From NCBI GenBank assembly GCA_017542245.1, contig JAFXXN010000037.1, positions 24,377 through 88,376 of the forward strand: a stretch of 64,000 nt of DNA. The letters are read 5' to 3'. Position 1 is the first letter of the stretch, and each line of letters opens with the position of its first letter. The notes beneath the pieces were generated by a model. That model searched no databases. It saw nothing but the letters and a program-made list of their open reading frames with translations, and was not told the DNA's origin. Below, piece after piece: positions 29,827 to 39,557 of this stretch. This DNA comes from Lachnospiraceae bacterium (lineage in GTDB: Bacteria > Bacillota > Clostridia > Lachnospirales > Lachnospiraceae). Made by a program: the position numbers and the translations under genes.

Positions 29827-30740
29827 GCCAATATATCATAATTGATGCCCATGTACATCTCTGGGAAAAACAGGAAGGATGTGTAAACGGAGAAAGCATT
29901 TACGGCATAGGTAACGGAAAGAGTAACTTCTGCGGTGAGACGAGACAGATGATGCCGCCATATTTGGAGGATAATAAGAATACTGCTGAACGGCTGATTG
30001 CCAATATGGATTATGCGGGGGTAAATGCATGCGCTGTTACACAGGAGTACATTGACGGAAATCAAAACGAATATCTTCTTAAGGTTAAAGAAAAGTATCC
30101 GGACAGATTCAGGATAACTGCATTATTTGAGGATGAAGGATATCGTGGAAAAGGATTCAGTCCGAATGGGTTGGGAGATATAGATTTAAAAGATTTTGAT
30201 GGTATAAAAATATGTGCGGGCCGTTTAAAAAATTCTGATCTAACTGCCATAACAGATGTTTTTAAAAAGGCGCAGACGGCAGGAAAATACATATCTATTG
30301 ATCTGGCAGATGGGGATGAACAAACTGAAAGTCTCCAAAAAGTAATAGATGAATGTCCGGATCTAAAAATTGCAATAGGCCATTTTGGTATGGTAACTAC
30401 GAAAGGCTGGCAGAAGCAGATAGAACTTGCAAAAAACAAGAATGTTTTCATAGAAAGCGGAGGACTTACATGGCTTTTTCATAAGGAATTCTATCCGTAT
30501 CCATCCGCTATTGATGCAATTTTAGAGGCGAGAGATATCTGCGGAATGGAAAAGCTTATGTGGGGAAGTGACTATCCACGTACTATGACGGATATAACGT
30601 ATAAGTCGGCGATACGTTTTATACTGGAAACGCCTAAAATGACAGATGAAGAAAAGGCAGCTTTTTTAGGAAAAAATGCAGAGAAATTCTATGGATTTAA
30701 GAATCTTGTTCCGCTTCCTGAAATTGATAATATGCTATAA
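29823..30740 (+). CDS. Amidohydrolase-family sugar lactonase
   Basis: 305 residues, a TIM-barrel amidohydrolase of the COG3618-like group. The metal site begins IIDAHVHLW (HxH, His10 and His12) and ends with MWGSDYPR, whose Asp is the catalytic base. Related enzymes hydrolyse L-rhamnono-, L-fucono- and L-galactono-1,5-lactones. Here it should open the lactone made by the first dehydrogenase. It overlaps uxaA by four bases, so it belongs firmly to the operon. No signal peptide. Family firm; lactone choice inferred from context. Confidence 0.85.
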   Translation: MSQYIIIDAHVHLWEKQEGCVNGESIYGIGNGKSNFCGETRQMMPPYLEDNKNTAERLIANMDYAGVNACAVTQEYIDGNQNEYLLKVKEKYPDRFRITALFEDEGYRGKGFSPNGLGDIDLKDFDGIKICAGRLKNSDLTAITDVFKKAQTAGKYISIDLADGDEQTESLQKVIDECPDLKIAIGHFGMVTTKGWQKQIELAKNKNVFIESGGLTWLFHKEFYPYPSAIDAILEARDICGMEKLMWGSDYPRTMTDITYKSAIRFILETPKMTDEEKAAFLGKNAEKFYGFKNLVPLPEIDNML

Positions 30741-30794
30741 TATATTATAATTTTTAAGATGATTGAAAATACTTGTTAAAAACTGGGGGTAAAT

Positions 30795-31232
30795 ATGTTA
30801 AAAGGAATATCACCCATGCTTACACCGGAACTGTTAAAGGTGCTTTGTGAAATGGGACACAGTGATACTATAGTTATAGCGGACGGTAATTTCCCTGCTG
30901 AGACCATGGGGAAAAATTCGATTGTAATACGTATGGACGGACATGGAGTTCCGGAGATTTTAGAGGCAATCCTAAAAGTTTTTCCATTGGATCAGTATAT
31001 TGAAAAACCGGTAAGTCTTATGGAAAGAGTACCGGGAGATAATGCAGATGTATCTATCTGGAAAAAATACGATGAAATAGTTTCAAAAGAAGAGGCAAGA
31101 GGTGTAAAAGTTATCCAAAAACTGGAACGTTTTGCTTTTTATGAGGAAGCAAAGAAAGCATATGCGATAATTGCGACATCTGAAACCAGCCAGTATGCAA
31201 ATGTTATCCTGCAGAAGGGTTGTGTGTTATAA
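30795..31232 (+). CDS. fucU: L-fucose/L-galactose mutarotase (FucU/RbsD family)
   Basis: 145 residues. The family motif is GHSDTIVIADGNFPAE with His22 and Asp30, and the C-terminal ATSETSQYANVILQKGCVL carries the Tyr/Asn residues of the active site. FucU interconverts anomers of L-fucose and accepts other sugars of the same shape, L-galactose among them. A mutarotase is useful where a dehydrogenase uses only one anomer, which fits the operon. Own ribosome site (GGGGGT). It is the last gene before repeat copy 2 and a terminator. Confidence 0.9.
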   Translation: MLKGISPMLTPELLKVLCEMGHSDTIVIADGNFPAETMGKNSIVIRMDGHGVPEILEAILKVFPLDQYIEKPVSLMERVPGDNADVSIWKKYDEIVSKEEARGVKVIQKLERFAFYEEAKKAYAIIATSETSQYANVILQKGCVL

Positions 31233-31241
31233 CAAAAAGAA

Positions 31242-31302
31242 GATGCGGAGCATCGTTTTGCTACCGAGGAAACGCAGAAGACGTTTTCGAGGTGACATTG
31301 AC
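31242..31302 (+). repeat. Structured dispersed repeat, copy 2
   Basis: 61 bases, the partner of 20178-20239. It keeps hairpin GATGC-GGA-GCATC, linker GTTTTGCTAC, hairpin GGAAACG/CGTTTTC with a different loop (CAGAAGA), and the end box GTGACATTGAC. Here it lies after the last gene of an operon rather than before a first gene, which argues for a dispersed repeat family over a classic riboswitch. Confidence 0.75.
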
Positions 31303-31323
31303 CAAATTGACTCAAATTAAAAA

Positions 31324-31353
31324 AACGATGACAGGCGAAAACCTGTCATCGTT
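31324..31353. terminator. Two-way terminator between fucU and the lasso exporter
   Basis: A perfect 12-bp stem, AACGATGACAGG (31324-31335) with CCTGTCATCGTT (31342-31353), flanked by A and T runs. The stop codon of the minus-strand exporter gene (31346-31348) lies inside the stem. Confidence 0.85.
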
Positions 31354-33007
31354 CTATTATAATCTTTTTGTTTTCAATTTTCAGTTCAGCCGTACAATAT
31401 TTTAAAATGCTCTTTCGATGTGTAATGATGAGGCAGGACGGTCTGGGATTAAGCTGTTCTAATCCTTTGATTACCTTTTGTTCTGTTGCTTCATCAAGTG
31501 CGGAAGTCGCTTCATCAAAGATCAGCATGGGAGATTTTCTCACAAATGCACGGGCTATGGCTATACGCTGAGCCTGACCTTCTGACAATCCGAGCCCTTT
31601 TTCTCCTATTACGGTATTCATACCATCAGGAAGATTACTTATGAAATCATAAGCGGAAGCAAGCTTCAGTGCTTCTTCAAGTTCAGCATCTGTTGCGTCA
31701 TGACGGCCGGAAAGAAGATTGTCTTTTATTGTTCCGCTGAATAAAGTGTTTCCCTGGGGAACATACGCTACATACTTTCGTATACCTGCATCGGCTTTCT
31801 GCTCTTCATTTTTCTGATTGAAAAAGGTGATGGTTCCTTCATCAGGCTTTACAAAAGACATGATCAGGCGAATGAGAGTAGTTTTTCCGATACCGGATTC
31901 TCCGATAACGGCTGTTGATTCTCCGGGAGAAATAGAAAATGATACTTTATCAAGTACCTTTTCCTGATCATTGTATCCAAAGGAAAGGTTAGATGCTTTA
32001 ACTCCAAGTGTAGTCGTATCTATGGTTACTTCTGTTTTTTCTTCAGGAGGTATTTCAGAGAGTTCCATAATTCTTTCTGCAGAAGTAAAAAGGGCTACGA
32101 CGGTTGGAATCTGGTGAGCAAGGTTTATTATAGGAGTCTGTACTCTGTTTACCAGAGTAAGGAAAACTGACATTGTTCCGTAGGTGATCAAGGATTTTGA
32201 TATCTGAATAGCACCGTAAGTAAATGCAGACAGATAACCTATCTGGAAAGCGAGACCTATGGATGTTGTGCCGAGCAGGCTTGCTTTAGTCCTTCTGAAC
32301 ACCCATTTAAATCTTTCCGATCTCAGCTCGGAAAGACGTGCTGTTGAATAATCTTCGTTAGCAAATGATTTTATGATAAGCAGATTGGCAATACTTTCCT
32401 GGAGAAAAGATCTGTAGGCCGATTCTGATTCCTGTACTTTCTTCTGAAGGGTTTTAAGCCTTCTGGCAAACAGCCATGATACTACGACAGATACAGGTGC
32501 CACGATTAAAGCGAGAAGAGCCAGAAAATGCGAATAAAAGAAAAGAGTAAAAAAAACAAGTACCAGCTCTATGAAAAGCTGTATGATCCCGGGAATTGTA
32601 TTTATTACACCGTCAGCAATATGACCGGCGTCGGTTGAAAGCCTTGTTACGATATCTCCGGAATGATACTTGGAAACAGTATGCCAGGAAGCCCGTATAA
32701 TTTTATCATAGACATTTTTCCGGATACCGAAGGAGATTTTCTCATTTAACAGCGTAGAAAGAAGTGAAGCTATCGCAGTGATAATCTGTATTCCGAGCAT
32801 AACGATTATATATAATATTATAATACCTGTAAGGCTCAGACCTTCAGCTGCACCATCGATAATATCCTTGGAAAGTATAACGGTATATAATGATGCGCCC
32901 GATATGCCCAGACTGAGAGCCAGCATAAGGACGATCTTTATTCGATGACCTTTAGCATATCCCAATATCCATTTAATACAATTCAGATACTTTTTAATTC
33001 TATCCAT
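31346..33007 (-). CDS. ABC exporter of the lasso-peptide cluster
   Basis: 553 residues, a half-transporter with six predicted membrane spans (residues 1-300) fused to an ATPase. Walker A is GESGIGKTT, the signature LSEGQAQRIAIARA, Walker B LIFDEATSALDE, and the H-loop ITHRK. There is no N-terminal C39 peptidase domain, so it exports an already cleaved peptide and would give self-protection. It starts directly after the PqqD-type gene stop (no gap), the last gene of the minus-strand operon. In lasso clusters this position is the D (exporter) gene. Confidence 0.92.
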   Translation of the reverse strand: MDRIKKYLNCIKWILGYAKGHRIKIVLMLALSLGISGASLYTVILSKDIIDGAAEGLSLTGIIILYIIVMLGIQIITAIASLLSTLLNEKISFGIRKNVYDKIIRASWHTVSKYHSGDIVTRLSTDAGHIADGVINTIPGIIQLFIELVLVFFTLFFYSHFLALLALIVAPVSVVVSWLFARRLKTLQKKVQESESAYRSFLQESIANLLIIKSFANEDYSTARLSELRSERFKWVFRRTKASLLGTTSIGLAFQIGYLSAFTYGAIQISKSLITYGTMSVFLTLVNRVQTPIINLAHQIPTVVALFTSAERIMELSEIPPEEKTEVTIDTTTLGVKASNLSFGYNDQEKVLDKVSFSISPGESTAVIGESGIGKTTLIRLIMSFVKPDEGTITFFNQKNEEQKADAGIRKYVAYVPQGNTLFSGTIKDNLLSGRHDATDAELEEALKLASAYDFISNLPDGMNTVIGEKGLGLSEGQAQRIAIARAFVRKSPMLIFDEATSALDEATEQKVIKGLEQLNPRPSCLIITHRKSILKYCTAELKIENKKIIIER

Positions 33008-33271
33008 TTAGATGAAGTCCGCCTTTTCCAACTTTTCAAGAAATTCCATAACGGATTTTTCACATTCCTGAGGAGATACTTCGTATTCTTTGAGAAGCCT
33101 GTTTATTATTTCTTCAACAGAAATCTCATCCTTTAACATATCCCAGATAACGTTGCCGACTCCTTTAATAATATAGTAATTTCCTGTATTAAAATCTATC
33201 ATGGCTTTTTCGCCGTTCAGTACGGTTACATCAATATCTCTTTTGAATTTCACAATTCTTTTTTTATCCAT
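33008..33271 (-). CDS. PqqD-like RiPP recognition element (lasso B1)
   Basis: 87 residues, a stand-alone RRE. The three-strand plus helices pattern is VKFKRDIDVTVLNGEKAMIDF, then YYIIKGVGNVIWDMLKDEISVEEIINRLLKEY. It should grip the leader of the precursor peptide and present it to the protease and the cyclase. It overlaps the cyclase gene by 22 bases, indicating coupled translation. Small size is normal for the family. Confidence 0.88.
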   Translation of the reverse strand: MDKKRIVKFKRDIDVTVLNGEKAMIDFNTGNYYIIKGVGNVIWDMLKDEISVEEIINRLLKEYEVSPQECEKSVMEFLEKLEKADFI

Positions 33272-35235
33272 TTGTCTACCCCGATAAATTGTTTATAGTT
33301 TTCAAGGAAACAACCGAGTGCAGAAGCTACAGAACCTTCAGCGACAAGCTGTTTGTCTAAATTATATTCTTTTTCCGTCAATTCTTCAATAAGAAAATCA
33401 ATTTTTTTTCGGTCGAGGTATTTATCCAGCTCGTGTGATTTGAGATAACGGAAAAGAGTGCCTTTGGTGTCATCCCAATAGGTATTTGCTCTGAACAGAT
33501 AATCGGATGCCTGGTTTCCGCGGCGGATCAGATTATTTAATATATCATCGCTGACAATACCTTTCAGGTAATCTCTTACAGCTCTTCTTTCTTTACCGTT
33601 TCTGACAAAGCAATCTATAGGAAGCGCCATACAGAGTTCGAGGACATCTTTTGACATTGTCGGATCAAGATAAATGGCACCGGTGAATAAACTCTGACAG
33701 GTTTCGAAATAGCATGTATGCTGTGTTACCAGAGGATGAAAAATATATCCTTTCCATTGCTTAAAGGAATCAATCGCGTTACAGCCTAAAGAATTACTGT
33801 GCTTACGCTCCTGCTTTTTCAAATTATGCTTTTTTATAAGATCTTTTCTTACGTAACTGGAAAAGCTTTTTCGGCACATCTTGTTTATTCTTACTTTAAA
33901 ATAATACTGTAAAAGTCTGGGTCTGTTGACATGATACAAACGGCAGAAAGCAGCTGCTTCCTTTAATGAACTAATAAAATGAAAGCCATGATTTTTCTGG
34001 TAAATATATGTGGTTATATTCCCGTACGATATGGTCGCATTTCCTGCTTCGCCGGTAAATACGATTGAAATACCGTCTTTTTTTACTTCTTCGTCCATTG
34101 AATAAATATAAGGTGCGTTTAAGACAGGTTTTACAGGCTGTGCAAAACGACGCATATACTTTTCGGGTTCACTGAAGGATGTCAGATCTTTGGTTGTGAT
34201 GAAACGACACTCGATATTAGGATGTCTTTTTTTATTTTTTAAGACATCTATAGCTTCGTTTTCAACCTCCAGACCTGACGTATCACACTTATATTCGGGA
34301 CACGGAATCTGAGTATAACTGTATAAGGACTGACCTGATTTGGCGAGTTCTTCAGCAGCTACAGATGCAACAGAGGACGAATCCAGTCCGCCGCTTAAAA
34401 AAACTCCGTGTTTGTTTCTGGCTCTCAGCATTTTTTTACAAGATTTAATGAATGTTTCGCGGAATAATTTTCCGTATTCTTCATCGGAAGACAGTTTAAG
34501 AGGTTTTACGGATTTGAGAGGATTCCAGTATTCTATGTTTTTTAACGAAAACTCAGGATGTTCCAAGTCTGTTTTATTTGGATCGATCTGTACATAATGT
34601 CCCGGTTCAACACGAAAAACGTTTTTATATACTGTACGTCCGTTAATCTTCTCTGTATCGGGAGTTAAATCCATATATGCTGAACATATCCATTCTTCAT
34701 CAAGTTGAGGTTCTTTTAAAAGTGCGGATATTACATGAAGCGTAGAGGAATAATACAGCTTTCGATTTACAACCGTATAAGCCAGGTGGCGGCCGGAGAT
34801 ATGATCGGTAATAAGATATACACAACCTGTATTTTTGTCGGATATTACTATGGAATATGCGCCTTCCAGCATATAAACAAAAGAAATACCGTAATTGGTA
34901 TATGTTAAGAATGCAAGCTCTGCGTCACCTTTTTGTGAAAGGACTGAGCCGGAGAAATTTTTTTCTTTAACCAGTCTGTCTATCAGTTCCTGCCTGTTAT
35001 ACAGGAAAATGTCTGCATTAAAGATAATGTTTCTGTTATCAGTTGTTATCGGAGATATATCGTTTACTGCTTCAGGTGTAAAATACTGGTGAGAACATGA
35101 GAAAAAAAGCCCGGGGTCACTAAAGGAATCTGTTCTGTCGGTAACGAAGGCAGAGGATACCTGATTGATAATATTTATTTCATCTGTAGATATTTCATTA
35201 TGATCGAAATCAATTATTCCTGCTATTGCTGCCAT
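33250..35235 (-). CDS. Asparagine-synthetase-like lasso cyclase
   Basis: 661 residues. The N-terminal 200 residues keep the glutamine-amidotransferase fold, but it opens MAAIAGIIDF: the catalytic Cys2 is replaced by Ala, so no glutaminase activity. Residues 281-287 are SGGLDSS, the ATP-pyrophosphatase loop that adenylates a carboxylate. In lasso pathways this enzyme activates an Asp/Glu side chain and closes the ring onto the new N-terminus. Its start overlaps the HPr-kinase-like gene stop by one base. The RRE, kinase, exporter and B2 protease around it make the lasso role much more likely than asparagine synthesis. Confidence 0.88.
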   Translation of the reverse strand: MAAIAGIIDFDHNEISTDEINIINQVSSAFVTDRTDSFSDPGLFFSCSHQYFTPEAVNDISPITTDNRNIIFNADIFLYNRQELIDRLVKEKNFSGSVLSQKGDAELAFLTYTNYGISFVYMLEGAYSIVISDKNTGCVYLITDHISGRHLAYTVVNRKLYYSSTLHVISALLKEPQLDEEWICSAYMDLTPDTEKINGRTVYKNVFRVEPGHYVQIDPNKTDLEHPEFSLKNIEYWNPLKSVKPLKLSSDEEYGKLFRETFIKSCKKMLRARNKHGVFLSGGLDSSSVASVAAEELAKSGQSLYSYTQIPCPEYKCDTSGLEVENEAIDVLKNKKRHPNIECRFITTKDLTSFSEPEKYMRRFAQPVKPVLNAPYIYSMDEEVKKDGISIVFTGEAGNATISYGNITTYIYQKNHGFHFISSLKEAAAFCRLYHVNRPRLLQYYFKVRINKMCRKSFSSYVRKDLIKKHNLKKQERKHSNSLGCNAIDSFKQWKGYIFHPLVTQHTCYFETCQSLFTGAIYLDPTMSKDVLELCMALPIDCFVRNGKERRAVRDYLKGIVSDDILNNLIRRGNQASDYLFRANTYWDDTKGTLFRYLKSHELDKYLDRKKIDFLIEELTEKEYNLDKQLVAEGSVASALGCFLENYKQFIGVDKWIKKEL

Positions 35236-36125
35236 TATTCCTCCAGATAATTTCTGATGATATTACAGATTTCAACTGCTGTTTGTTTACCGGACGGACG
35301 TTTTATACGGATCATTTCTATTTCTCCGGCGAGTTTCAGACATTCGTTTTTAATATATACGGGATATTCCGATGCCCGGAATAGGGATGCCATAAAGAGT
35401 GAATTTAACAGAACGGAAACCTTTTCAAAACCGGAAACTACGCCGTATTCAACGGAATCTGAATCGGTAATTTCCAATTTAAAAAATTTAGAAAGCTTTC
35501 TGGGATATGGATCAAAACTTTCTGTGTCTATAGATGCAAATTTGTCCTTTAATTCATCGATATAGACCAGGTTATTTCCGGTGCAGAATGAATCTGCGAT
35601 ATCCCTGCACATCTTTTGCAGAGGCAGCCCGGGATAGACCATAAAACCGTCTTTAACAGAAGTAAATGCAATATCATCCGAAAGAAGCTTATAACCGTTT
35701 TTGATGAGTGATATCGCAGTAGTTGATTTGCCGGCGCCGCTGTGACCGGAAATGAGAAAAGCACGATTACCGTGAGAGAGTGCTGAACAGTGAATTCCGA
35801 GACAGCCTCTCTGAAACATCAAAAAATTAATACACCATCCCAAAAGATATGCCGACAGTAGGTTGTTGGAAGTATCATTCTTTGGAGCAGCATATATACT
35901 GTTTCCGTTTTCAATCAGAAAACTGCCGGCATCGGTACTGAACCATATCCTGTTTTCGGAGAATGAGTAATTAGAGTTTGAGGATCCGGTTTCGGGTAAA
36001 AAATGATAGCTTGTTTTTATCGTTACATCCGAGTTTACAGGAGAATTATATAATAGTTTTTCTGATTCATATAACTGTATGTCAGATTCAAAATATAAGC
36101 CGTAAATGTAATAATGATACAACAT
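35235..36125 (-). CDS. HPr-kinase-like protein of the lasso cluster
   Basis: About 296 residues from the ATG at 36125; an earlier ATG at 36140 lies inside the AAAGGA ribosome site that serves the later one. The P-loop is GHSGAGKST with K133, followed by LLSDDIAF and YPGLP, the HprK/P-loop signature order. The N-terminal 100 residues are beta-rich and not recognisable. In paeninodin-type lasso clusters such a kinase phosphorylates the precursor, there on a C-terminal serine. The precursor here ends in ...GELK and has no terminal Ser, so its target would have to be another residue. First gene of the minus-strand operon. Confidence 0.85.
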   Translation of the reverse strand: MLYHYYIYGLYFESDIQLYESEKLLYNSPVNSDVTIKTSYHFLPETGSSNSNYSFSENRIWFSTDAGSFLIENGNSIYAAPKNDTSNNLLSAYLLGWCINFLMFQRGCLGIHCSALSHGNRAFLISGHSGAGKSTTAISLIKNGYKLLSDDIAFTSVKDGFMVYPGLPLQKMCRDIADSFCTGNNLVYIDELKDKFASIDTESFDPYPRKLSKFFKLEITDSDSVEYGVVSGFEKVSVLLNSLFMASLFRASEYPVYIKNECLKLAGEIEMIRIKRPSGKQTAVEICNIIRNYLEE

Positions 36126-36154
36126 AAAAAATCCTTTCATTTTTGATAGAAATG

Positions 36155-36183
36155 TTGCAGATATACATATAGTATGTTAGAAT
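36155..36183 (+). promoter_or_regulatory. Promoter of the precursor peptide gene
   Basis: TTGCAG at 36155-36160, 17-bp spacer, TAGAAT at 36178-36183, 39 bases before the precursor start. The minus-strand operon must start in the same 96-base gap, so regulation of the two may be linked. Confidence 0.6.
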
Positions 36184-36221
36184 GACTTCAGTTTTTAAAA
36201 AATATATTGGAGGTAATAATC

Positions 36222-36428
36222 ATGAAGAAATGGGAAACACCTGATATGCTTGTCCTTGATGTTAAGGAAACTGCCAGTGGCGGTAAGAAATATAATAAAG
36301 TTGACGGTAACCGTTGGGATGAGTTAAAGATGGAACATACTTTCACTTTTTGGCCCAGTGGAGATTACGAGGCAGATCCTGAATCAGAGGAACTTTATCA
36401 GAAGTACTTAAACGGAGAGCTTAAGTAA
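36222..36428 (+). CDS. Lasso-type precursor peptide
   Basis: 68 residues from the ATG at 36222, with GGAGG eight bases ahead; reading from the TTG at 36207 would swallow that site. The first 18 residues (MKKWETPDMLVLDVKETA) match the leader of paeninodin-like precursors: aromatic then PxxL, LDV, and a Thr (T17) at the expected penultimate position. If cleaved after A18 the core starts SGGKKYNKVDG and has Asn, Lys, Val at ring positions 7-9, with Asp only at position 10. Cleavage one residue later gives G1-D9. The tail, about 50 residues with many acidic and aromatic positions, is far longer than usual. It is encoded opposite to all the modifying genes. Confidence 0.8.
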   Translation: MKKWETPDMLVLDVKETASGGKKYNKVDGNRWDELKMEHTFTFWPSGDYEADPESEELYQKYLNGELK

Positions 36429-36447
36429 TACTTAGGTAATTCATTAC

Positions 36448-36480
36448 AAGGCGGATTCTTTTGAGTCTGCCTTTATTTTT
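36448..36480 (+). terminator. Terminator after the precursor gene
   Basis: AAGGCGGATTC (36448-36458) pairs with GAGTCTGCCTT (36463-36473), 11 bp with two G-U pairs, loop TTTT, then T-rich. Confidence 0.75.
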
Positions 36481-36495
36481 TGTGATTTTTACCGT

Positions 36496-36963
36496 TTAAT
36501 TTCTGAAGGTACTTACAACAGCATATCTGTCCAGGCCATCTATCTTTCCGGTGACTATAAATTTACCCCATCTAAGCCACGCATGAGCGGCCATTTCACC
36601 GGAATCTTCCTGGCAAACTCCCAGATATAATGTATAGTGGAGTTTCTTTTTCCTTAAAAGCTTTCCGGCGGTCAATGCTCTTACCAGACACTTGCTTTCC
36701 CATTTTGTATAGTTACATACACAGAGGACGGCTCGGGCAACTTTCTGCACATAATCGAATCCATCCATGGATTCTTCCTCAGAGGATTCCTCTTTTTCTG
36801 TACCCCAGTTTTTTTTCATTCGTTTAGGTTTGAAAATGAGCAGTCCCAATCTGTAAAAAGCAGAGTAGAAGAAAGCACGCACTATCATGAAAAAGCATTT
36901 ATTATCATGAGCGAACCGGATTGCTCTTAATGGAAGACATCCCTGTTTTTTGTCTTGGGACAT
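36496..36963 (-). CDS. Lasso peptide B2 protein (transglutaminase-like leader protease)
   Basis: 155 residues. The C-terminal half has the cysteine-protease pattern of lasso B2 proteins: C92 in WESKCLVRALTAG and H127 in AAHAWLRWG. Residues about 1-40 are hydrophobic and basic, with FFMIVRAFFYSAFYRLGLLIF, a possible membrane-facing helix. B2 cleaves the leader bound to the PqqD-like B1. It is transcribed toward the precursor gene and ends 16 bases past its terminator; it therefore has its own promoter, separate from the four-gene minus-strand operon beyond the precursor. An insertion of acidic residues (EKEESSEEES) lies at about 57-66. Confidence 0.85.
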   Translation of the reverse strand: MSQDKKQGCLPLRAIRFAHDNKCFFMIVRAFFYSAFYRLGLLIFKPKRMKKNWGTEKEESSEEESMDGFDYVQKVARAVLCVCNYTKWESKCLVRALTAGKLLRKKKLHYTLYLGVCQEDSGEMAAHAWLRWGKFIVTGKIDGLDRYAVVSTFRN

Positions 36964-37130
36964 TTGAATATATCTCCCTTCTCAAAATTAATACAACTCG
37001 GGATTCGAGCAATATTATGACAGTTTTACCAATATACCGGCATTATACCATATTGAAAAGGAACGTGCAATAGATGGGCTGTAATTTGTTGTCGTGGACA
37101 TCATCTGTTAAGAATATAGCAACAAAAGAC

Positions 37131-37159
37131 TTGCCGAAAAATGATTTTAATGATATAAT
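37131..37159 (+). promoter_or_regulatory. Promoter of hpf
   Basis: TTGCCG at 37131-37136, 17-bp spacer, TATAAT at 37154-37159. A hairpin (AAAGCCT 37174-37180 with AGGCTTT 37198-37204) lies between it and the start codon and could attenuate or protect the message. Confidence 0.65.
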
Positions 37160-37226
37160 TAATTTTATCAGAGAAAGCCTTGAAAACCACAGATCACAGG
37201 CTTTTGAATTGCAAGGAGGAAAGCTT

Positions 37227-37751
37227 ATGCGTTATATTATCACAGGAAAGAATATTGATGTGACGGAAGGCTTAAAAAATGCCATTTATGAGAAAATCGG
37301 GAAGCTGGAAAAGTATTTTAAACCTGACACAGAGGTGCATGCGACTTTCAGCGTTCAGAAAGACAGACATAAGATAGAAATAACTATTCCGATAAAGGGG
37401 ACTGTTATCCGTGCAGAAGAAGAAAGTACGGATATGTATGTATCAATAGATCTGGTGGAAGAGATTATAGAAAGACAGATTAAGAAATATAAGAGCAAGA
37501 TTGTTGATGCAAAACAGAACGGAACCGGATTGAGCGAAGCATTTGCTTCCGAACCCGGGGATGAAGAAGAAATAATAATTACCAGAACAAAGAAATTTGC
37601 CATGAAACCCATGGATCCTGAGGAGGCATGTATCGAGATGGAACTCAGCGGTCATAATTTCTTTGTATTCAGAAATTCAGAAACCGGCGAGGTAAATGTA
37701 GTATACAAAAGAAAGGGGAATACCTACGGGCTTATCGAACCGGAGTTTTGA
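37227..37751 (+). CDS. hpf: Long-form ribosome hibernation promoting factor
   Basis: 174 residues from the ATG at 37227, with AAGGAGGA seven bases ahead; a reading from 37074 would run through the promoter and is discarded. The N-terminal S30AE domain starts RYIITGKNIDVTEGLKNAIY and continues to about residue 100. A variable linker (about 105-120) precedes the C-terminal dimerisation domain FAMKPMDPEEACIEMELSGH. The protein joins 70S ribosomes into inactive 100S dimers in slow growth or stress. Long form is standard in Firmicutes. Confidence 0.95.
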   Translation: MRYIITGKNIDVTEGLKNAIYEKIGKLEKYFKPDTEVHATFSVQKDRHKIEITIPIKGTVIRAEEESTDMYVSIDLVEEIIERQIKKYKSKIVDAKQNGTGLSEAFASEPGDEEEIIITRTKKFAMKPMDPEEACIEMELSGHNFFVFRNSETGEVNVVYKRKGNTYGLIEPEF

Positions 37752-37811
37752 TCCGGAACAGGAAAGGTATAAAAGTCTTTCCTTCGAAAAAGCAGAGTAG
37801 GAGAATCATTC

Positions 37812-39557
37812 ATGGTTCTAAGCATACTTTTAGCTATAACCGTGATCGTGGTCATGATTGATGTCCTTGTCGGCATACACAGAGGCGTTAAATTCGGACT
37901 TGTCCGTCTTGGCCTTTGGGTCGTGGGAACCGTAATATGCGTATTTATTGCCGAGGGAGTTACATCATGGCTGCTGCTTAAGATAGCCAAAGTCCCTGAT
38001 ATGAAACTGTTTACCTTCGATGTTTTCGGAGGCTGGATGGGAGAATATACGGGAACTATAGGAAATCATATGACGGCACTTACCGTTTCCTTGTCTGTGC
38101 CGGTCGTATTTGTTGCTTTATTCTTGGCAGCAAAGTTTATCACATGGTTACTTTATCTTATTGTAAAACAAATAATAAAAAAGGCCGCGAAACGCGCCAC
38201 TGCACATAATGCAGCTGTGGATGCCGTAACGGCTGTTAAAAAGGCTGAGATGCCGGATGCGGAATCTACCGGACTGGATCAGCCATACGAAGCTACTCTT
38301 CCGCAGTCAGTCTTAAATTCGGAAAACGGAGACGACTTCGGTACTTTCGGTATATATCCCAAAGAATCTAAAACAGTTGAAGCGTATGAGCCTGAAAAAG
38401 AAACTGATATGGATACAGCTGTTACAGAAGATGGTTTTGATATCTTAAGTAATGATGACTTTTCAGGTTCGGACGGATTTGAGGCTATAGCCAATTCGGA
38501 TCCGGAAATTGAAGTCGAAGAAAGCGAAGAGGAGCCTGAAGCAGGAGATGAACCGGCAGGTAGTGACGAACCGGATGATCTTGAAGCGGATGGTGAATCA
38601 TTAGATGGTTTTGAGAGTCTGGCAAGAGCATCTGTTGAGGAAGAATCAAAGAAAGAGGCAGAAGAAAAGAAGGTTAAGGTTAAACCTGTAAAGGTAAAAC
38701 CGGTTAAAGTAAAGGCTGTTAAAGAAAAGAAGCTTAAGAAAAGACATTCGCTTTCTTTGTTTATTATGGAAAAGACTACTGCATCAAGTGTTTTGGGCGG
38801 TGTCTTGGGAATGTTTATAGGTCTGTTCACCTGCGCTATCATTGCGTCACCCGTAAAAGGACTTGTAAAAGTTATCGCGGATAAGGAAATGGCAGAGCCT
38901 ACTGTAAATCTTGTAGCGGCTCTTGCCAATCTTGATATGAAGCAGGTTGTAGACGGAGCGTTTGATGAAGACGACAAAAAAATTGCAATTATATCCAAAA
39001 ACCTTGATCTTGTCGGAGATTTCAGCATAAGATCGGAAGATTTTGTTGAAGTATTTACAGATCTTGAGGATTCAGTCCTTCATCAGGTATATAAGTATTC
39101 GGGTGCTGATTTTACCGCATCTGCCATATATGACAGCTTAGTGGATATAAAACCTGAAGACATAAAGATTGAAAACAGAGGGATAAGTAAGTATAACATG
39201 GCGGAAACATTAGGATGTTATGCTCCCCTTATTCCTGACCTTAATGATATACTTACAGAGATTAACGAGAGAAAAGGTCTTAATTTTGAACTGCTTGACA
39301 TATTGGAGCGTGGCATAAAACATTTGTTCGACAGTGACGGAAAAGGTGCTATACTTACTGAAGCCGATAAACTCCAGATAGCAAATGGAATAGTAGACCG
39401 CTTTAATGAAATTTTAGCGGACCACTTTGTTCATTATTATACGAATACCGAATCACCGGTAATTGAGCATTTTGAAAGATTCAGTGAAGCCAGAAAAGGG
39501 TTTGAAACCAGTTTTGACCTTATGAGAAGGCTTTTGCGGGCCGGAATGATAGAGTAA
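37812..39557 (+). CDS. CvpA-like membrane protein with acidic insertion
   Basis: 581 residues. Three hydrophobic segments at the N-terminus (about 3-20, 30-50, 95-120, the first with GIHRGVKFGLVRLG) and one at about 325-345 (SSVLGGVLGMFIGLFTC) follow the CvpA order. Between the third and fourth lies an insertion of about 190 residues, first strongly acidic (EVEESEEEPEAGDEPAG) then lysine/valine-rich with KVKPVKVKPVKVK repeats. The C-terminal 220 residues are soluble and unknown. CvpA proteins are linked with colicin V production, solute stress and sporulation-era membrane events, but the function is not settled. Ends in a terminator. Confidence 0.6.
   Translation: MVLSILLAITVIVVMIDVLVGIHRGVKFGLVRLGLWVVGTVICVFIAEGVTSWLLLKIAKVPDMKLFTFDVFGGWMGEYTGTIGNHMTALTVSLSVPVVFVALFLAAKFITWLLYLIVKQIIKKAAKRATAHNAAVDAVTAVKKAEMPDAESTGLDQPYEATLPQSVLNSENGDDFGTFGIYPKESKTVEAYEPEKETDMDTAVTEDGFDILSNDDFSGSDGFEAIANSDPEIEVEESEEEPEAGDEPAGSDEPDDLEADGESLDGFESLARASVEEESKKEAEEKKVKVKPVKVKPVKVKAVKEKKLKKRHSLSLFIMEKTTASSVLGGVLGMFIGLFTCAIIASPVKGLVKVIADKEMAEPTVNLVAALANLDMKQVVDGAFDEDDKKIAIISKNLDLVGDFSIRSEDFVEVFTDLEDSVLHQVYKYSGADFTASAIYDSLVDIKPEDIKIENRGISKYNMAETLGCYAPLIPDLNDILTEINERKGLNFELLDILERGIKHLFDSDGKGAILTEADKLQIANGIVDRFNEILADHFVHYYTNTESPVIEHFERFSEARKGFETSFDLMRRLLRAGMIE

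Follow-up and report, generated by a model that had tools for sequence, protein, structure and literature searches.

The six-gene cluster at positions 31346..36963 of the window (the whole 64,000-nucleotide stretch of DNA analysed here, from a gut-type Lachnospiraceae bacterium) is, in our judgement, probably a phosphorylating lasso peptide cluster of a clostridial paeninodin-like group, whose precursors carry one extra residue between the leader threonine and the core. An initial annotation had observed that the precursor offers no ring acceptor at the place its leader predicts, and had proposed a shifted cleavage site, a new ring size, or a non-lasso use of lasso enzymes. The residue positions behind that observation are right, but the apparent lack of an acceptor is a trait of the clostridial cluster group, not of this gene alone. 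The lasso gene set looks normal, and a broken or exotic system is probably a less likely explanation than a cut shifted across the group; judged by its sequence, the cluster belongs to a clostridial lasso group that has already been predicted. One gene's apparent defect becomes a testable, group-wide question: either the rule that places Thr at position -2 of the leader does not hold for clostridial paeninodin-like peptides, or these peptides have ten-residue rings. Precursor mining that takes for granted both Thr(-2) and rings of 7–9 residues would misparse the clostridial precursors.

The enzymes and the exporter, five genes in all, are encoded on the minus strand, whereas the precursor gene, which lies between those for the kinase and B2, runs on the plus strand, an orientation that had gone unremarked. 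The earlier identification of an exporter, an RRE, a cyclase, an HprK-like kinase, B2 and a precursor was confirmed for all six:

31346–33007, minus strand: ABC exporter (ABC_membrane plus ABC_tran domains)
33008–33271, minus strand: RRE (B1, PqqD-like; NF033536 3e-21, 75.4 bits against a cut-off of 80; Pfam PqqD 1.5e-16)
33250–35235, minus strand: asparagine-synthetase-like lasso cyclase (NF033535 162 bits, below the cut-off of 525; PF00733 Asn_synthase 8.1e-17)
35235–36140, minus strand: HprK-like kinase (HprK-type family matches, all below their cut-offs)
36222..36428, plus strand: lasso precursor, 68 residues with an ATG start, stop included (ribosome-binding site, NF033524 match, conserved position)
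36448–36473, plus strand: hairpin of the precursor gene resembling a terminator (stem of 11 pairs followed by a run of T), 3' of the stop
36496–36963, minus strand: transglutaminase-like B2 leader peptidase (NF033537 78.5 bits against a cut-off of 33, 5.5e-22; PF13471 4.2e-21)

The locus has the gene content of a lasso cluster: B2, RRE, an AsnB-like cyclase and a short precursor. The RRE has relatives of solved structure (9x90, 2.1e-13; TbiB1 5v1u, 1.1e-6), Cys92 and His127 of B2 are invariant among 16 aligned sequences, and an NF033537 search found a single B2 in this genome. The change of cyclase Cys2 to Ala, listed in the initial annotation, is real, but Cys2 is missing from all 11 aligned cyclases, which rules it out as a mark of unusual chemistry. 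Two genomes of the same genus (G006, locus L020; G017, locus L021) have an identical arrangement, with the precursor on the opposite strand between the kinase and B2. Neighbouring genes are shared with L020 on both sides and with L021 on one, and these matches rule out a contaminating or degenerate cluster. No known RNA family reached its gathering threshold within 30000–38500.

The precursor, MKKWETPDMLVLDVKETASGGKKYNKVDGNRWDELKMEHTFTFWPSGDYEADPESEELYQKYLNGELK, is a real gene, because a ribosome-binding site (GGAGG, 36209–36213) lies just 5' of its ATG at 36222, a terminator-like hairpin follows, and its position is conserved in the two same-genus genomes. It scores 20.2 bits against the paeninodin family model NF033524, below the cut-off of 27. 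Read from the leader threonine, the L020 and L021 precursors are TAQGGNEFTVID and TAESGPISANTD. We denote residues by their distance from this threonine. In the window precursor it is T17, followed by A18, with V27 at T+10 and the first core acid, D28, at T+11, where the L020 and L021 precursors also have their acid. Counted from S19, positions 7–9 are N, K and V and D28 is position 10, as had been calculated. A missed second precursor can be ruled out in the window, since only one open reading frame in the whole 64 kb (36222–36425) matches the leader rule; across the genome, a search with the precursor gave a single confident match, the next one having an E-value of 0.9.

To place this precursor among its relatives, we collected loci by NF033537 searches. 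Genomes with a match numbered 12/397 in the family set, 8/391 in the class set, 13/398 in the phylum set, 21/206 in the family f43, 3/22 and 1/1 in two other genera, and 6/24 in the window's own genus, its own genome (and so its own B2) included; the sets overlap. The label 'Clostridiaceae' for f43 and the description of the phylum-level sequences as Bacilli-like both come from sequence likeness and kinship tags. Named loci from other searches were added: a contig scan with the cyclase alignment kept 80 loci from many phyla, a few of which were used (L035–L038 and L040, plus some checked without result). To count as a precursor, a sequence needed the pattern [WYF]xx[PAS] with Lys or Arg ahead of its aromatic residue, together with hydrophobic residues at +8 and +10 and a Thr at +13. 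The rule matched 89 sequences with near-copies retained, of which 66 lay within 1500 bp of a cyclase; one of the 89 (L140 744) is plainly noise and was counted among those not near a cyclase. Several B2 loci contributed no rule-matching precursor, among them L024, L027, L029, L032, L040, L124, L129, L130, L183, L184, L185, L189 and L202. From the published Table 3 of PMC7533575 we entered 21 of 35 rows, omitting ten near-duplicates, the C. beijerinckii row (identical to L204), and three Ruminococcus rows with another leader type and the acid at T+10.

Within this sample, most clostridial precursors linked to a cyclase carry their acid at T+11. With near-copies included, this was so in 22 of 30 Lachnospiraceae precursors (T+10 in four, neither in four) and in 18 of 21 from Clostridiaceae (T+10 in two, neither in one), whereas 14 of the 15 non-Clostridia precursors had the acid at T+10 and one at T+11. 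After removal of near-copies the T+11 counts were 15/22, 10/13 and 1/9, respectively, with 8/9 non-Clostridia precursors at T+10. The eight Lachnospiraceae exceptions comprise five precursors of a second type, two Cys-containing precursors and one from L186. All 20 Lachnospiraceae-type sequences entered from the published table have D at T+11 (PMC7533575). The window precursor lacks the T+10 acid of the collected Bacilli members of the paeninodin family and fits the clostridial group instead: it has a W leader, the threonine, a small residue at T+3, D at T+11 and a Ser in the C-terminal region.

Where no cyclase is near, T+11 alone carries the acid in 1/15 Clostridiaceae precursors, 1/3 from other Clostridia, and 2/5 from Lachnospiraceae, these two having their cluster's cyclase 6–7 kb away; one more Lachnospiraceae precursor has an acid at both positions. 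This distribution bears on a use of the enzymes outside lasso chemistry, which would leave the product linear or merely phosphorylated. Some f43 genomes do have loci with B2, RRE and a kinase but no cyclase in the fetched stretch, and a published study describes RiPPs that are linear and phosphorylated and whose leaders are related (PMC13381572). These linear polyphosphorylated peptides (LPPs), as far as they are described there, share with our locus the RRE, the HprK-like kinase, an MsbA-like exporter and a similar leader motif, but have an SpI-like peptidase, no cyclase of their own and a YxxP leader, where the window has B2, a cyclase and WxxP. That class is expected to lack a macrolactam cyclase, and the window has one at 33250–35235, which is conserved. 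Because the T+11 acid in Clostridiaceae follows the cyclase (18/21 linked precursors against 1/15 not linked), we regard a non-lasso product as extremely unlikely, and that earlier suggestion is disfavoured.

We next asked where the core begins in 41 precursors, all selected for having D at T+11; 24 came from the collected loci and 17 were published, with near-copies (at most three differences in 12) removed. The residue at T+3 is small (G, A, S, T or C) in 36 of them and G in 30, and that at T+2 is small in ten and of 12 types (Q7 Y6 G6 L5 K4 F3, others), a contrast with a Fisher p of 7.5e-9. T+4 is small in 20. Six precursors argue against a strict rule: five in which T+3 is not small (H, H, D, E, R) and one in which it is T. 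Experimentally observed first residues of lasso cores include Gly, Cys, Ser and Ala, named as examples, and Asn, new in metanodin (PMC12670498); T+3 matches one of these five in 35/41 precursors and T+2 in 12/41. A small T+3 is what would be expected if the core begins there. Conservation of Gly at T+3 alone is no proof of a first residue, because it is invariant in the non-clostridial T+10 set too (9/9), where a core beginning at T+2 would make it residue 2. The window precursor by itself would allow a start at S19, G20 or G21, making D28 position 10, 9 or 8, respectively; the choice among them rests on the group. Thr17 is at -2 with a core from S19 and at -3 with one from G20.

On this basis the most likely parse, predicted from the sequence pattern, is the following:

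36222..36278, plus strand: predicted leader M1–S19, with WxxP at W4–P7 and T17 at -3 (from the W-to-T spacing; inferred cleavage point)
36279..36305, plus strand: predicted nine-residue macrolactam ring G20–D28 (from the T+11 acid and the small T+3 of the group; predicted bond)
36357..36359, plus strand: Ser46 of WPS-G, predicted kinase target (S-G or terminal S conserved in relatives)
36360..36425, plus strand: C-terminal extension G47–K68 after the conserved Ser (variable-length extension in Lachnospiraceae relatives)

By homology, the RRE would bind the WxxP leader. The kinase would phosphorylate a serine, most likely Ser46, and the group pattern suggests that B2 with the RRE cleaves after S19, leaving Thr17 at -3. 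The cyclase would link the Gly20 amine to Asp28, closing a standard nine-residue ring, and the ABC protein would export the product. A one-residue shift of the cut across the group probably accounts for the missing ring partner. The observations behind this reading are the gene content, the T+11 acid that goes with the cyclase, the small T+3, the conserved serine and a split in the cyclase tree described below. The shifted-cleavage proposal of the initial annotation (G1 to D9) is the best supported of its options, as a property of the clostridial group.

If Thr(-2) holds in Clostridia, residue 1 lies at T+2 and the rings have ten residues: the cyclase would join S19 to D28 here, and throughout the T+11 group would accept nearly any first residue. 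The W-to-T spacing of 13, common to the window precursor and the collected precursors, equals that of Bacilli, where the paeninodin mass supports Thr(-2). Thr(-2) is the rule that has experimental support, paeninodin included. For the paeninodin core, AGPGTSTPDAFQPDPDEDVHYDS, starting at T+2, we computed an m/z of 1209.504 (2+). The value published for the core produced in vitro is 1209.50 (PMC5067487), which fits a start at T+2 with Thr at -2. The T+10 and T+11 sets both conserve the Gly at T+3, as would suit a second residue in every member, and Ser is already known as a first residue (PMC12670498). The authors of the metanodin study likewise retained the Thr(-2) rule despite the new first residue it implied (PMC12670498). 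Against a ten-residue ring, published lasso rings, in the accounts consulted, have 7–9 residues, so that such a ring would exceed them, and a one-residue change in ring size is said to lower production significantly (PMC13352647). For 31 of the 41 precursors, moreover, the first residue would come from the set Q, Y, L, K, F, E, H, D and N, and among these only Asn is one of the types reported in PMC12670498. We therefore consider the ring from S19 to D28 unlikely: the new ring size once proposed for this gene would demand, in most of its relatives, first residues outside the types named in that study.

A cut one residue further on, after G20, would give an eight-residue ring, G21–D28. The window precursor has a GG at this point, and in three Butyrivibrio precursors from the literature the Gly falls at T+4 while T+11 is D (PMC7533575), but T+4 is small in only 20/41 precursors as against 36/41 for T+3, and we judge this start highly improbable.

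The cyclases divide along the same line as the precursors. Among 47 cyclases placed on a tree, the 14 with T+10 precursors and the 28 with T+11 precursors lie on opposite sides of one branch (support 84/95). This branch appeared in 87% of 200 bootstrap trees, and none of 500 label shuffles came out as low, a test that near-copies in the tree (e.g., L171/L206, L033/L131, L178/L179) favour. We assigned the labels by hand, and the position of the root is not known. Five sequences were left uncounted: L031 and L186 with mixed precursors, and L201, L205 and L206 for which no precursor had been found, of which L201 and L206 later proved to be T+11. Two f43 loci, L199 (TKGNPGVKGND) and L195 (TKGALDGNGED, which also has E at T+9), group with the T+10 Bacilli and have Gly at T+2 and Asp at T+10 (T-K-G-x7-D), while nearby T+11 sequences such as L190 (TEYGTKITTKVD) have Gly at T+3 and Asp at T+11. 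In this comparison, with two sequences on the T+10 side, the Gly–Asp spacing is constant and the Thr–Gly spacing varies, which is how a kept nine-residue ring with the leader end moved by one residue would be expected to look. L125, a third non-Bacilli T+10 locus on the same side of the tree, has Asn rather than Gly at T+2; its precursors lie 3.3–3.5 kb from its cyclase.

The kinase raised a second puzzle: the initial annotation saw no C-terminal Ser for it, the residue that is the kinase target in the paeninodin family. This is literally so, as the precursor ends in ...NGELK, but a Ser followed by Gly, or a terminal Ser, occurs in 34/41 T+11 tails against a shuffle mean of 13.3 and maximum of 24 (2000 shuffles), and the conserved Ser46-Gly47 largely answers the objection. 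The de-duplicated Clostridiaceae precursors all end in Ser (10/10), whereas the 31 of Lachnospiraceae type have an internal S-G after the ring in 22 cases, a terminal Ser in two and neither in seven; the internal S-G lies at T+22 to T+36, mostly T+26 to T+30. The internal and terminal serines correspond, because paralogs within the L033 cluster either end at ...NLWASFES or run on as ...NLWASFPSGAEE. The kinase target is thus probably Ser46, the counterpart of the relatives' terminal serine, and the conserved internal Ser suggests the tailoring kinase's site where a terminal one seems missing. PadeK modifies a C-terminal Ser (PMC9266682) and BsfK the internal Ser3 (PMC10368454), so a terminal Ser is no general need of lasso kinases. 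H117, K138, D155 and D156 of the window kinase, each conserved in 85% or more of the 22 kinases aligned, appear to be the published His-Lys-Asp-Asp motif (PMC9266682). The unusually long tail of about 50 residues, on the parse preferred here, divides into a 27-residue core up to Ser46 and a lineage-specific extension that may be trimmed or kept and is acidic, 22 residues long and without a fixed counterpart in relatives.

Related precursors have been predicted before. Sabino et al. 2020 parsed 35 rumen precursors in silico with Thr at -3, G1 and D8 or D9, and noted a conserved Ser in the C-terminal region; they listed three Ruminococcus precursors of another leader type with the acid at T+10, and parsed a Bacillus cereus precursor as GPGLKTPD (PMC7533575), which conflicts with the Thr(-2) result for paeninodin. 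Their rumen Lachnospiraceae precursors (Table 3) resemble ours in the Thr at -3, several GG starts, D at T+11 and the Ser of the C-terminal region (compare TAK/GGKKVSEHDG with TAS/GGKKYNKVDG in the window); the window sequence differs and extends further past the Ser, and theirs are likewise predictions. A 2026 survey of rumen isolates counted 21 lasso clusters, and 12 of the core peptides showed a [GA]x7D motif, although the survey's own search rule demanded Gx7D (PMC13289728). Our literature search, with subscription papers largely outside its coverage, found no study of a product made from a clostridial precursor with a W leader. Paeninodin from Paenibacillus and its Bacilli relatives share with the window separate B1 and B2 proteins, the cyclase, the HprK-like kinase, the ABC exporter and a leader with W or Y xxP and Thr 13 residues on, but there the acid is at T+10, the core starts at T+2 and the Ser is at the very C-terminus.

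Other precursor types were seen at related loci. Four f43 loci (L126, L192, L197 and L198) have B2 but no cyclase within the 12–14 kb fetched; their precursors are long, often Cys-rich and mostly Ser-terminated, with W leaders, and L198:767-11436 also encodes an RRE, an ABC exporter and three Hpr_kinase_C-matching proteins, one above the Pfam cut-off. These loci may make linear phosphorylated RiPPs with a lasso protease. The second Lachnospiraceae type (L023:11456-13722, L030:1-1115, L035:2969-5188, L026:1720-1929 and L037:7549-7749) is Ser-terminated in 4/5 and has Asp at T+11 in 0/5; in L023, L030 and L035 it adjoins a more divergent cyclase-like gene. A third, conserved Cys-containing precursor occurs in Lachnospira-like clusters (L033:4941-5144, L131:4826-5029 and L132:4342-4548); this type has no acid at T+10 or T+11, and in L033 it reads TACDRGYSYEQP... 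from Thr and ends in GFFGKGWIW. Finally, in the two precursors encoded at L125:5285-5612 the leader end is Trp-Thr (EWTQN...); T+10 is D, and T+2 is Asn, the first residue reported for metanodin if Thr(-2) holds (PMC12670498).
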